From assembly GCA_903926565.1 (NCBI GenBank), contig CAIYJU010000049.1:1-38176 (forward strand): a stretch of DNA of 38,176 bases, in the 5' to 3' direction. Position numbers and translations under genes: made by a program. This stretch comes from an uncultured Bacteroidales bacterium (GTDB lineage: Bacteria > Bacteroidota > Bacteroidia > Bacteroidales > FEN-979). Each line of letters begins with the position of its first letter. Position 1 is the first letter of the stretch. Shown piece after piece: positions 6,856 to 35,182 of this stretch. The notes below the pieces were generated by a model that was not told the origin of the DNA, ran no database searches, and saw nothing but the letters and a program-made list of their open reading frames with translations.

Positions 6856-7650
6856 CTACAGCAGCAGCGATAAATCCTGTGATCGCTCCACGAGTTCCGG
6901 CATGTCGTTTCGCGGCGAATTAACCAATTGTGAAACCGGCCATGCATCCATTAAATCCGCCGGAAAGGGTTTTAACAGTTCAACCAGCGCCGGATCAGCC
7001 TTTGGGGTAATCCAGCGTTGTTCATCATCCCGTTCAAGTATCACAGGCATCCGGTCATGGATATTCCCCATAAGGGAATTGGGCGTCGTGGTGATGATGG
7101 TAAACGAATGAACAATTTCACCATCACCGGAAACCCATTTATCCCACAACCCGGCAAAACAAAACGGATCACCGTTTTTCATCCCGATATGGTATGGCGT
7201 AGTAGAGACGGGGCATGCCCCGTCTCTACCGCCCCGTTTCCATTCAAAAAAACCTGTTGCCGGCACCAGGCACCTGCGGTTTCGGAATACGGTTTTAAAC
7301 GATGGTTTTTCCACCAGGGTTTCTGCACGGGCGTTGATCAGTAGCGACGGGGCATGCTGTGGCGACAGGGCATGCTGTAGCGACGGGGCATGCTGTGGCG
7401 ACGGGGCATGCTGTGGCGACGGGGCATGCTGTGGCGACGGGGCATGCCCCGTCGCTACCGGTTTTGTCCAGGATGGAATCAACCCCCACCGGTAATAATT
7501 CAGGGTGTCCGGGGCCTCGTTGGTGATCACCGCCAGGTTCTGGGTGGGGGAGCAGTTATACCTGGCTTTATATATCGCGGTCCTTACCCTGAGTCCGAAT
7601 CGTTCCAGGATCATCGCATCTTCAACAGCAAATGAGTATCGTCCGCACAT
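6856..7650 (-). CDS. SRAP-domain protein (YedK/HMCES type) with in-frame repeat insertions
   Basis: This 264-residue protein belongs to the SOS response-associated peptidase (SRAP) family, which crosslinks to abasic sites in single-stranded DNA through its N-terminal cysteine. The expected residues are present: Cys2 (MCGRYSF), Asn106 and Glu110 in NARAE, Glu136 in GFFEW, and His198 in IHDRMPVIL. Two loops are enlarged by repeat DNA. Residues about 65-103 are multiples of a six-residue unit QHAPSP encoded by an 18-bp tandem array, and residues about 139-150 (GGRDGACPVSTT) come from a 28-bp perfect palindrome. The enlarged loops lie between conserved blocks, so the fold may tolerate them. The gene follows rsmI after 4 bases and ends the rprX-rprY-rsmI run. 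Function is likely but not certain given the insertions. Confidence 0.88.
   Translation of the reverse strand: MCGRYSFAVEDAMILERFGLRVRTAIYKARYNCSPTQNLAVITNEAPDTLNYYRWGLIPSWTKPVATGHAPSPQHAPSPQHAPSPQHAPSLQHALSPQHAPSLLINARAETLVEKPSFKTVFRNRRCLVPATGFFEWKRGGRDGACPVSTTPYHIGMKNGDPFCFAGLWDKWVSGDGEIVHSFTIITTTPNSLMGNIHDRMPVILERDDEQRWITPKADPALVELLKPFPADLMDAWPVSQLVNSPRNDMPELVERSQDLSLLL
7202..7229. repeat. 28-bp perfect palindrome with GGGGCATGCCCC core
   Basis: The left arm GTAGAGACGGGGCA is followed directly by its exact reverse complement. The element lies inside the SRAP coding region, where it encodes part of the extra loop after the FFEW motif. The same core occurs at 7435-7458 and at 12055-12171. 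Confidence 0.9.
7341..7458. repeat. 18-bp tandem array ending in a GGGGCATGCCCC palindrome
   Basis: Six units of the form GTGGCGACGGGGCATGCT (with GTAG and ACAGGG variants) start at 7341, 7359, 7377, 7395, 7413 and 7431. The last unit runs on into the missing half, CCCGTCGCTAC, completing the palindrome. The array therefore looks like an expansion of one half of the palindromic element. Its length is a multiple of three and it is read in frame by the SRAP gene. Confidence 0.9.
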
Positions 7651-32724: not shown

Positions 32725-33021
32725 TCAGCAACAGTTTCCTCCTGAACCACAATCACAGCTTGGCTCTGTCCCACGGATAAGCCCGTTGAGAATACCTGCC
32801 GCACAGCCAACACCCGATTTCACAGTGATGGCTCCCTCCTGGCAGTTCTTCGCACAGGCGCCGCACTCCATGCAATAGTCCAGGTATCGGATAACTGCCT
32901 TTTTCTCTTCAATCTCAAAAACAGCATGCGGGCATACAATCAGACACATCCTGCATCCGGTGCACTTTTCAGGGTCCAGCTTCAGGGTAACAACATCGGT
33001 AAGATAGGTGAATCGGCTCAT
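32725..33021 (-). CDS. hgcB: Mercury methylation ferredoxin HgcB
   Basis: This 98-residue protein has two [4Fe-4S] motifs: Cys20, Cys23, Cys26, Cys30 (EKCTGCRMCLIVCPH) and Cys50, Cys53, Cys56, Cys60. The second reads CMECGACAKNC, the HgcB signature. Cys73 (SGVGCAAG) matches the single conserved cysteine required in characterised HgcB. The protein ends CDCGSGGNCC, giving the C-terminal vicinal pair Cys97-Cys98. HgcB supplies electrons to the HgcA corrinoid and probably takes part in Hg(II) delivery. Its ATG overlaps the hgcA stop by four bases (ATGA), so translation is coupled. A longer overlapping frame upstream to 33333 is a shadow of hgcA. Confidence 0.94.
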   Translation of the reverse strand: MSRFTYLTDVVTLKLDPEKCTGCRMCLIVCPHAVFEIEEKKAVIRYLDYCMECGACAKNCQEGAITVKSGVGCAAGILNGLIRGTEPSCDCGSGGNCC

Positions 33022-34055
33022 AGTGCTAAAAATCTTGTGATAATCCACCCTGCCAGCCCCACTGAAACCATGGCAATCTGAATTGGCAGCGCAGTTTTCA
33101 TCTCTTTTTGAACCCCCGAAAGCGAGGTGAAGGTGGAGGATCCTGTAAAATTCATGGCCATGAAAGAGGAGAGTCCTCCCATCATCAGGAACCACGATGT
33201 CGTTTCTGCAATGCTCCCTCCCAGCGTGTTTAACCAAAGCAGGAGAAAGGCAGCCAGCCAGCCTGTGACAATACCTTTCAGCGAAAACCTGCGAAACGGG
33301 ATCCAGGGCAGCAGGGCAGGAGTGATGACACATCCTGCAAAATAGCCGGAATACAGGTTAAGGGTAGATTTCCAGCCAACAGTGAATGCAGAATCAACCG
33401 AATAACCGCCCGGATAAAACCCGGAAAGTATAAAAAAAATGGCCGGCACAAGTAACATATAGTATTTCCCGTAAAAAACATCAACGGGGATTACTTTCAG
33501 CCGTTCAGCCAAAGGAAAGGTCACCAGCCGCATCTGATCACTGGCTTTGAGTCCGGCTTCAAGAAAATGCTTGATATCCACGGCTTTGACAGGTCCGTAA
33601 ATCACCGCGAATCCGGTCATGTGTTTTACTTCATGCGCTGAAACCCCGGTTGCCCCCAGCTGGGGAAGTATGATTTTCCGATGGTCAACCAGTTTTTCGA
33701 GATGGTGTATCCTGATGCGGCGAACCACCTCTTTGGTGCCAAAGGTGCCTTTTCCTGCCGCACACCACACATTGATCCCTTTGGTGTCGATCACCAGGAG
33801 CCATCCGTCAATGCCAATCAGTGCCCGCCTGAGGTGGTCGAAGCTGAGTTTGTAGTTTCCGGTGACAAATACCCGGGAACTTTTATCCGGATTGCCAACA
33901 GCATAAATCCCTGGTAAAACCCTGTAGCTCATCCTGCCAATCGACCAGCGGACTTTCATCGTATTCAATCGGTCCTGAAAGCTCCAGACAGTCGAAATTT
34001 GAGGGACTGGTCCAACATCTGTCTGAAGATGGCCGGTGATAAAACCTGCGTTCAT
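33018..34055 (-). CDS. hgcA: Mercury methylation corrinoid protein HgcA
   Basis: This 345-residue protein is HgcA, which carries a methyl group on a corrinoid cofactor and passes it to inorganic Hg(II). The diagnostic cap-helix motif NVWCAAGK lies at residues 95-102, with Cys98 as the putative cobalt ligand, in TKGINVWCAAGKGTFGT. Flanking family blocks are VRWSIGRMSYRVLPGIYAVG, ILPQLGATGVSAHEVK and VIYGPVKAVDI. The C-terminal half (about 198-340) has five membrane helices, with the conserved NFTGSSTFTSLSGVQKEM. All key parts are present, so it should be functional. It follows the CcdA-like gene after 7 bases and overlaps hgcB by 4. Confidence 0.96.
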   Translation of the reverse strand: MNAGFITGHLQTDVGPVPQISTVWSFQDRLNTMKVRWSIGRMSYRVLPGIYAVGNPDKSSRVFVTGNYKLSFDHLRRALIGIDGWLLVIDTKGINVWCAAGKGTFGTKEVVRRIRIHHLEKLVDHRKIILPQLGATGVSAHEVKHMTGFAVIYGPVKAVDIKHFLEAGLKASDQMRLVTFPLAERLKVIPVDVFYGKYYMLLVPAIFFILSGFYPGGYSVDSAFTVGWKSTLNLYSGYFAGCVITPALLPWIPFRRFSLKGIVTGWLAAFLLLWLNTLGGSIAETTSWFLMMGGLSSFMAMNFTGSSTFTSLSGVQKEMKTALPIQIAMVSVGLAGWIITRFLAL

Positions 34056-34062
34056 GATGAAC

Positions 34063-34764
34063 TTAAATGGTTAACAGGAAGTAAAATCCCAGGGCTACAA
34101 GGGAAATCCCTCCCGCATATTTTGCGACACTTCCCACAATTGTGAGAGTTTTGGATATTTTCCCAAGACCCAGGCTGAGCCCGGTCATCATCGCGGCCAG
34201 CGGTAACCCGTATCCCAGCGAAAATGTGGTAAGCATCATCAATCCCCAAAGTGCACTCCCCTTGACAAATGATGCCGCAAGAATTACAGGGAATAAGGGG
34301 TTGCAGCAGGAATTCAACGCACTCGACAATCCCCCGACTGCAAAACCAAAAAGAATCGCCGAAAAAATATTTTGTTTCGATTGACCGGGTTTGATCGAAA
34401 ACCCCGGGAGCTTGAAAGGTACGAGCTCCATCGAATACATCCCGAAGAAAATGGCAATCAACCCGGCGGCGATTTTCCAGTAGTTGCCGAATGAATCATT
34501 GATCCATTGCCCTGCATATCCAAAAAGAGTACCGATCAGACCCATGGAAACAACCCCGCCGATGAGAAAAGCCACCCCCCTGAAGATTGCGGTTTTAGCC
34601 CGGCTTTCCTGCGAGCTGGCCCCGGAGTACCCTGCCACCACACCGATCACTGCAAAGTTGCATCCACAGGTTACCACACTCACAATACCCATCACGAAAA
34701 CCGCAATCAGCACAGGGATCGAAGCATGATCGCTTTTTAAAACTTCATCAATCCAGGTCATCAT
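34063..34764 (-). CDS. CcdA/DsbD-like membrane protein with paired cysteines
   Basis: This 233-residue protein has about six membrane helices and the two-half layout of the CcdA/DsbD transmembrane family, which moves reducing equivalents across the membrane by thiol exchange. The expected helix-1 site reads VVTCGCNFAVIG (Cys33 and Cys35) and the helix-4 equivalent reads NSCCNPLFPVIL (Cys153 and Cys154), each doubled compared with the single cysteine typical of DsbD. The usual SPC.LP pattern is absent. An alternative is a relation to ArsG-type permeases, which have a similar topology. ATG at 34764 or 34761 may be used. It lies in the hgc run, 7 bases before hgcA and 4 after the cysteine-rich gene. 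Confidence 0.7.
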   Translation of the reverse strand: MMTWIDEVLKSDHASIPVLIAVFVMGIVSVVTCGCNFAVIGVVAGYSGASSQESRAKTAIFRGVAFLIGGVVSMGLIGTLFGYAGQWINDSFGNYWKIAAGLIAIFFGMYSMELVPFKLPGFSIKPGQSKQNIFSAILFGFAVGGLSSALNSCCNPLFPVILAASFVKGSALWGLMMLTTFSLGYGLPLAAMMTGLSLGLGKISKTLTIVGSVAKYAGGISLVALGFYFLLTI

Positions 34765-34768
34765 GATG

Positions 34769-35059
34769 CTATTTTTTTGGACAACAGGATGAACCTTTAG
34801 TGGTGTCGCAGGTTGTGGCCTTAGTGGTGTCGCAATCTGAAGAAGAAGGCGGACAACTTGATGCCTTCTCAGCCACCGGCGCTGGCTGTTTAAAAACCTT
34901 TACGGCAACAATGGCCAATGCCGCCAGAATGATGACTGCAAAAATAATTTTGGTCAGCGGGTTGCTTTTTTTTGGAGGGCAACACTCTCCGTCACAACCG
35001 CAATCACTGGTTTTCTGCAAATCTTTTTCAACCTCCGCGGGTTTTTCTTTCTCATCCAT
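34769..35059 (-). CDS. Small cysteine-rich single-pass membrane protein
   Basis: This 96-residue protein has nine cysteines around one membrane helix (about 37-55). The N-terminal tail has CGCDGECC (Cys20, 22, 26, 27). The other tail has Cys69, Cys76 and Cys84 in short repeats of the type CDTTKA/CDTTKG and ends SCCPKK (Cys92, Cys93). No enzymatic domain is present. I do not recognise a named family; the tail pattern is like those of metal- or thiol-handling proteins. It opens the four-gene run that ends in hgcAB, and its vicinal cysteines echo the HgcB tail. A role in metal or electron relay is inference. Confidence 0.65.
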   Translation of the reverse strand: MDEKEKPAEVEKDLQKTSDCGCDGECCPPKKSNPLTKIIFAVIILAALAIVAVKVFKQPAPVAEKASSCPPSSSDCDTTKATTCDTTKGSSCCPKK

Positions 35060-35143: not shown

Positions 35144-35182
35144 CAAATATACTTCATAATTTGAAATAACGTAATAATACGT
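35144..35182 (-). promoter_or_regulatory. Promoter and dyad ahead of the hgc gene run
   Basis: On the minus strand TATATTTG (35151-35144) matches TAnnTTTG, 85 bases before the cysteine-rich gene. The inverted repeat ACGTA-ATAA-TACGT (35169-35182) lies where the upstream promoter box would be, and no TTG is found there. This fits a regulator-dependent promoter. No regulator gene is adjacent. Confidence 0.45.

Follow-up and report, generated by a model that had tools for sequence, protein, structure and literature searches.

Organization of the locus

The window, that is, the whole stretch of 38,176 nucleotides analysed here (G000:C49:1-38176), belongs to an uncultured Bacteroidales bacterium whose genome comprises 4.69 Mb and is 93.8% complete. 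On its minus strand, the gene pair hgcAB is preceded by two small genes and a promoter-like element, as listed below.

32725-33021, minus strand: hgcB, encoding a 98-aa two-cluster ferredoxin with Cys73 and the terminal Cys97-Cys98 (NF040864 match)
33018-34055, minus strand: hgcA, encoding a 345-aa corrinoid protein with a membrane domain and the cap-helix Cys98 (NF040863 match)
34063-34764, minus strand: ccdL (name coined here; P0003), encoding a 233-aa CcdA/DsbD-like membrane protein (Pfam matches)
34769-35059, minus strand: cysR (name coined here; P0004), encoding a 96-aa protein with a single span and cysteine clusters on both sides (linkage in relatives)
35144-35182, minus strand: promoter-like element, with ACGTATTATTACGT at 35169-35182 and a TATATTTG box near 35144 (alignment, genome and loci scans)

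The genes are closely packed, as 4 bp separate cysR from ccdL and 7 bp separate ccdL from hgcA, and hgcA and hgcB overlap by 4 bp (ATGA, 33018-33021). Together they form a compact unit, presumably transcribed as one operon. The original prediction, which had covered only 32725-34055, placed the pair and its ATGA overlap correctly, but its span ends before the unit does, since this reaches 35059 and is headed by the promoter-like element. Elsewhere in the window, an 18-bp tandem repeat of 5.8 copies (7344-7447) lies in frame inside an open reading frame of the minus strand (6856-7650), encoding an APSPQH-type stretch in a protein that is SRAP-domain-like by eye.

Identity and integrity of HgcA and HgcB

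In the mercury methylation pair, the corrinoid protein HgcA carries the methyl group and is served by the ferredoxin HgcB, the two together methylating Hg(II) on the inner face of the membrane. The cap-helix cysteine motif of HgcA reads N(V/I)WCA(A/G)GK. In the window, the open reading frame listing and translation give an uninterrupted hgcA frame of 345 aa. When scanned with the NCBI profiles, HgcA reaches 426.9 bits with NF040863 (E 4.8e-128, curated cut-off 275) and HgcB reaches 121.4 bits with NF040864 (E 1e-35, curated cut-off 99). The HgcA match extends over model positions 1-324 of 325, thus covering the membrane domain that follows the corrinoid domain. The NVWCAAGK motif begins at residue 95, its cysteine being residue 98, and the conserved membrane block NFTGSSTFTSLSGVQKEM begins at residue 302. 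Regarding HgcB, its cysteines are found at positions 20, 23, 26, 30, 50, 53, 56, 60, 73, 89, 91, 97 and 98, so that the protein combines the match to the curated model with two 4Fe-4S motifs, the extra cysteine and the C-terminal cysteine pair that characterize this family. A longer in-frame open reading frame over hgcB extends to 33333, and the ATG inside the ATGA overlap gives the 98-aa protein, which aligns to the HgcB model over residues 6-98. The Cys98 motif, the membrane block, Cys73 and Cys97-Cys98 agree with the original prediction of a complete pair in a Bacteroidota genome.

Two other identities were rejected for HgcA, as it scores 207.5 bits with the HgcAB-like fusion model (cut-off 285) and 69.8 bits with the gamma subunit model of acetyl-CoA decarbonylase/synthase (cut-off 306). 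As far as the sequence goes, the latter dispels the concern, raised with the original prediction, that the protein could be the corrinoid subunit of carbon monoxide dehydrogenase/acetyl-CoA synthase (CODH/ACS), and the Cys98 codon is present in the sequence. Compared to known HgcA/HgcB pairs, that of the window is alike in passing the curated cut-offs, in its key cysteines, in adjacency and in overlap, and is itself no different, the difference being its two upstream partners. By these profile scores and frames, the pair is a genuine and apparently intact hgcAB, a new member of a known family.

Phylogeny and frequency of HgcA

A tree of 96 HgcA rows, without a CODH/ACS outgroup among them, was rooted at its midpoint. 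With this root, the window's HgcA falls inside a clade of 50 rows from Bacteroidota and Ignavibacteriota (support 92/96), where it clusters with L002, L003 and L035 (support 100/96), in line with the HgcA identity that the original prediction had proposed to check by a tree. One locus labelled Bacteroidales, L044, sits outside this clade. The cap-helix cysteine is present in 95 of the 96 rows, the exception being L071 (801-1832, labelled Candidatus Brocadiaceae), where NVWGAAGK carries glycine instead. Two other arrangements were observed among the loci: in L052, L057 and L061, hgcB lies apart from hgcA, its profile match beginning 1776-3908 bp after that of hgcA, and one genome of the same family (G042) has two separate hgcA loci, L143 and L150, each with its own CcdL.

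Among 149 relatives, HgcA is matched in 33 genomes and exceeds the cut-off in 32, compared to 24 of 393 genomes in the sample of the order and two of 395 in the even sample of the phylum. The hgcAB genes are common near the window's genus and rare across the phylum. The view of the original prediction that Bacteroidota carriers are known only sparsely therefore overstates their rarity close to the window's genus, and the accessible text of PMC7438021 already reports Bacteroidetes carriers of hgcAB, some isolates among them.

The two upstream genes, cysR and ccdL

CcdL belongs to the CcdA/DsbD transmembrane superfamily as judged by Pfam gathering scores, reaching 34.3 bits with PF02683 (DsbD_TM, cut-off 27.1) and 31.2 bits with PF13386 (DsbD_2, cut-off 24.9). 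The cysteines of the window's protein are Cys33, Cys35, Cys153 and Cys154. Of the 35 CcdL copies with residues aligned at the first-segment site, 34 have two cysteines in it; the fourth-segment site, in a part where the alignment is uncertain, holds two or more in 35 of 37 copies. In the eight outgroup rows, the first site has one cysteine in seven and two in one, and the fourth, where the alignment is likewise uncertain, has none in seven and one in one. The predicted structure of CcdL is of low confidence (pLDDT 62.6, pTM 0.59), and its fold matches are ambiguous. Because the weak outgroup row L201 is placed with CcdL in the tree of this protein, and the support uniting the outgroup is 71/52 only, the tree does not prove a single origin of CcdL.

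CysR-CcdL could be read as a thiol-redox conduit, in which CcdL, in the manner of CcdA, would accept the electrons of thioredoxin in the cytoplasm and keep thiols on the outside reduced, such as the CysR tail or other targets, giving a general protection against thiol-reactive metals without any transport. The only convincing solved relative of CcdL by sequence is the electron transporter CcdA (PDB 5vkv, E 1e-4), and in both the first and the fourth segment one of its cysteines roughly coincides in the alignment with a CcdA-type site. As CcdA carries electrons and not metals, this kinship also counts against the reading as an exporter that is developed below. However, CcdL differs from CcdA by its paired first-site cysteines, which go beyond the needs of thiol-disulfide exchange, and by its linkage to metal(loid) methylation genes. 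On balance, a purely redox function appears unlikely, with a considerable chance left to it.

Within the same broad DsbD-like superfamily, the organoarsenical permease ArsG (NF040495) was considered and rejected as the identity of CcdL, which matches that model weakly, at 27.9 bits against a cut-off of 200, compared to 309.4 for the ArsG relative of L051, separate from CcdL in the tree. The idea that the pair could belong to the 'Sao' selenoprotein mercury genes found no support, as no Sao model matched the window's CcdL and CysR or any of 23 CcdL copies; for the relatives of CysR, the scan covered Pfam. A SaoE-like protein scoring below its cut-off was noticed in L072.

CysR gave no family match with the NCBI curated profiles and Pfam at the thresholds used. 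In the window, its one hydrophobic span separates four N-terminal cysteines from five C-terminal ones, and the flanks carry three Lys/Arg residues on the N-terminal side and one on the C-terminal side, a charge distribution that suggests a cytoplasmic N-terminal end. The same pattern is seen over 34 sequences, which average 3.7 cysteines ahead of the span and 4.9 behind it, and 3.2 and 1.0 Lys/Arg in the respective flanks. Compared with L002, the dN/dS values are 0.119 for cysR, 0.066 for ccdL, 0.083 for hgcA and 0.176 for hgcB, rough figures because synonymous sites are close to saturation, and both upstream genes look to be under selection.

Linkage of CysR and CcdL to hgcA

The HgcA loci comprise the best 80 of a larger set, obtained by scanning contigs with the window's HgcA as query and therefore leaning to close relatives, and further loci of relatives, giving 99 distinct loci. 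Within this set, CcdL lies nearby on the same strand in 35 loci and CysR in 30. Conversely, of the 45 different CcdL copies in the analysis, 39 show linkage to hgcA (35 of 39 in the first set and four of six new ones, leaving out four repeats), one of these 39, in G017, being decayed. By profile search, CysR immediately precedes CcdL in 39 of these 45 copies. Of the remaining six, three (L018, L058 and L142) are truncated at a contig edge, one (L076) has no more than a fragment in this place, and two (L036 and L038) encode a longer cysteine-rich protein. Thus, CysR and CcdL occur together nearly always. The records with hgcA-linked CcdL are labelled Bacteroidota, Planctomycetota, Zixiibacteriota and Chloroflexota, single labels among which may be wrong because the records are metagenome bins.

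The association is also seen at the level of genomes, although the following p-values overstate the case, since the CcdL profile derives from hgc-linked copies and the genomes are related to one another: among the 149 relatives, HgcA is matched in 22 of 25 genomes with strong CcdL against 11 of 124 without (Fisher p 3e-15), and in the order sample it exceeds the cut-off in 15 of 17 with CcdL against nine of 376 without (p 4e-19, or 5e-18 once the window's genome is left out). In the relatives, a clear gap separates the strong CcdL scores, the lowest of which is 99.8 bits for a fragment, from the rest, led by 67 bits for the second part of a split copy and continuing at 60.6 or less. In the phylum sample, the window's genome and G320 are alone in having HgcA, and alone in having CcdL above 200 bits; 14 other genomes have weaker CcdL matches of about 69-84 bits; the gene order in G320 is arsR-arsM-cysR-ccdL-hgcA-hgcB. 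Along the HgcA tree, the label for CcdL changes 18 times compared to a mean of 28 after shuffling, none of 500 shuffles being as low.

On the other hand, no CcdL is found nearby in 64 of the 99 HgcA loci from the best-80 scan and the added relatives, and 11 of the 33 HgcA-bearing relatives are without any strong CcdL, indicating that the pair is not needed for hgcAB. A dependence of hgcAB on CcdL is thereby ruled out, as is CcdL being a partner of hgcAB only, since six of its 45 copies are unlinked to hgcAB.

Four of these six copies adjoin the arsenic methyltransferase gene arsM (L175, L177, L178 and L231); ArsM is confirmed at 336-341 bits in the first three (cut-off 263) and reaches 419 bits in L231 by a profile built in this analysis. 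In L176, CcdL lies within a cluster of ArsE-, ArsF- and ArsG-type genes with Acr3, and in L232 only CysR and CcdL were found among the eight profiles used; both loci have neither hgcAB nor ArsM, which counts against the export reading. L005 and L198 carry ArsM and hgcAB together, ArsM having been checked in both. The four ars-only copies that the midpoint-rooted CcdL tree includes branch within the hgc-linked ones, which makes loss of hgcAB from a common operon the simpler reading. Judged by this gene company, the CysR-CcdL pair appears to track the methylation of soft metal(loid)s and not of mercury alone. As a separate observation, L005 (3618-4853) and L175 (6839-8146) have ArsC and ArsM domains fused in a single protein just upstream of cysR-ccdL.

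Promoter-like element and ars genes at the site

The region upstream of the window's unit aligns with those of L002, L003, L035, L157 and L163 around ACGTATTATTACGT and TATATTTG, the core of L157 having diverged. The element stands shortly before arsR in the loci with arsR at the site, and 109 bp before cysR in the window. ACGTATTATTACGT was also located at 5874 in L014, 127 bp before the hgcA match and with no arsR hit, and ahead of longer gene runs in L005 (381), L020 (844) and L175 (11265). In several congeners, the site is bracketed by the same flanks, named by eye as a NAD-dependent protein, an MFS transporter, an outer-membrane protein and a transglycosylase-like protein, the search having extended to both sides in some congeners but not in all.

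What lies between these flanks varies. L002 and L035 have arsR-arsC-cysR-ccdL-hgcA-hgcB-acr3, the window and L003 have cysR-ccdL-hgcA-hgcB only, with no local ars genes, and L157 has arsR-arsC-hgcA-hgcB-acr3 without cysR-ccdL. In L207 (G016), the matches to the MFS and outer-membrane proteins are 28 bp apart with nothing between them. The same site in L174 (3941-5279, G017) bears a decaying unit, with cysR, ccdL and hgcA broken and hgcB readable.

In the window's genome, the best Acr3 match is 25.9 bits compared to a cut-off of 282.8, a missed gene being possible at 93.8% completeness; no close ArsM was found there, the best match having 35% identity, and its ArsR-like proteins, encoded elsewhere, are only 45% and 30% identical. 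One of them (G000:C169:4339-4596), 45% identical to the ArsR of L035, might act on the retained promoter in trans. Because Acr3 is absent over its cut-off and the promoter element of the relatives' ars-hgc operon is retained, arsR, arsC and acr3 were probably lost in the window's lineage, where the four genes and the promoter stayed; a gain of ars genes in the relatives is the possible alternative. An association of ars genes with hgcAB is already in print, in the accessible text of PMC7438021, PMC10504345 and PMC10349881. The same-site relatives of the window likewise carry arsR, arsC and acr3 around hgcAB, as do the ars-associated loci in the accessible text of the first two sources, from which the window differs in having no ars genes beside hgcAB and no Acr3 over the cut-off in its genome.

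This raises the question of whether the pair is only an accessory of arsenic resistance, found with hgcAB merely because hgcAB often resides in ars operons, and having no role in mercury methylation. Among the 99 HgcA loci of the best-80 scan and the added relatives, an ArsR hit lies nearby in 43, Acr3 in 27 and ArsM in six; the pair accompanies ars genes without hgcAB in L175, L176, L177, L178 and L231, and the ars-hgcAB association is published, as far as the accessible text of PMC7438021 and PMC10504345 goes. However, the window and L003 keep cysR-ccdL-hgcAB though ars genes are absent, the profiles of ArsR, ArsC, ArsM and Acr3 found nothing in the stretches examined around CysR-CcdL-HgcA-HgcB of L041, L062 and L152, and the nesting of the four ars-only CcdL copies under the midpoint root looks like losses of hgcAB. 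Such a passenger status is therefore considered improbable.

Proposed function of the CysR-CcdL pair

The reading preferred here starts from the hgcAB genes as the last two of an operon cysR-ccdL-hgcA-hgcB, whose products HgcA and HgcB would methylate Hg(II) on the inner face of the membrane. CysR would expose one cysteine cluster to the cytoplasm and the other to the outside, and CcdL would place paired cysteines within the membrane. Through these thiols, CysR-CcdL may export methylated metal(loid)s that have an affinity for thiols, or shield the cell's own thiols from them, the cargo being methylmercury in this lineage and methylarsenite where ArsM adjoins. The unit would derive from a larger ars-hgc operon that lost arsR, arsC and acr3 and kept its promoter. 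As the basis for the role of the pair is its anatomy and gene company, we infer its function, and both transport and its direction are part of that inference. Taken as a whole, from the four-gene operon and its ars descent to the export or sequestration of methylated metal(loid)s, this explanation has in our judgement about an even chance of being right. A wider form of it is advanced more tentatively. There, CysR-CcdL would be the missing membrane partner of biological metal(loid) methylation, not only in Bacteroidota but also in several further phyla, and HgcAB and ArsM would share it as an exporter or thiol relay, for methylmercury and methylarsenite respectively; the window's lineage would hold it as a mercury unit without an arsenite pump.

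MerP and MerT are thought to deliver Hg(II) inwards to mercuric reductase, and by analogy the outer cluster of CysR could collect Hg(II), CcdL pass it inwards and the inner cluster hand it to HgcB, as the cysteine clusters on both membrane sides and the position directly before hgcAB would allow, but the copies beside ArsM or ArsEFG without hgcAB would have no reason to import Hg(II), which makes this the most improbable account. A thiol relay or exporter is the most likely function of the pair, followed in order by a CcdA-like redox role, a passenger of ars operons and Hg(II) import.

Significance

To our knowledge, it is unsettled by which route methylating cells take up Hg(II) and release methylmercury. 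In the accessible text of PMC7438021, mercury uptake is described as highly coupled to export, with no carrier named. A linkage of hgcAB to a CcdA/DsbD-like and cysteine-rich pair was not found among the papers listed in searches of PMC, which covered the main article text; PMC10504345 also contains a gene-neighbourhood figure for Prolixibacteraceae. As far as their accessible text extends, PMC7438021 and PMC10504345 do not mention CysR or CcdL, and PMC13188914 has hgcA and DsbD, not linked to each other. What appears to be new here is CysR-CcdL as companion of hgcAB and ArsM, both hgcAB and its association with ars genes being already known. A conserved small gene pair standing before hgcAB, and also beside ArsM, offers a concrete candidate for the membrane handling of methylmercury. 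The window is a useful case for this, since with the arsenic genes absent, any effect of the pair on mercury would be unconfounded by an arsenite pump of the same operon.
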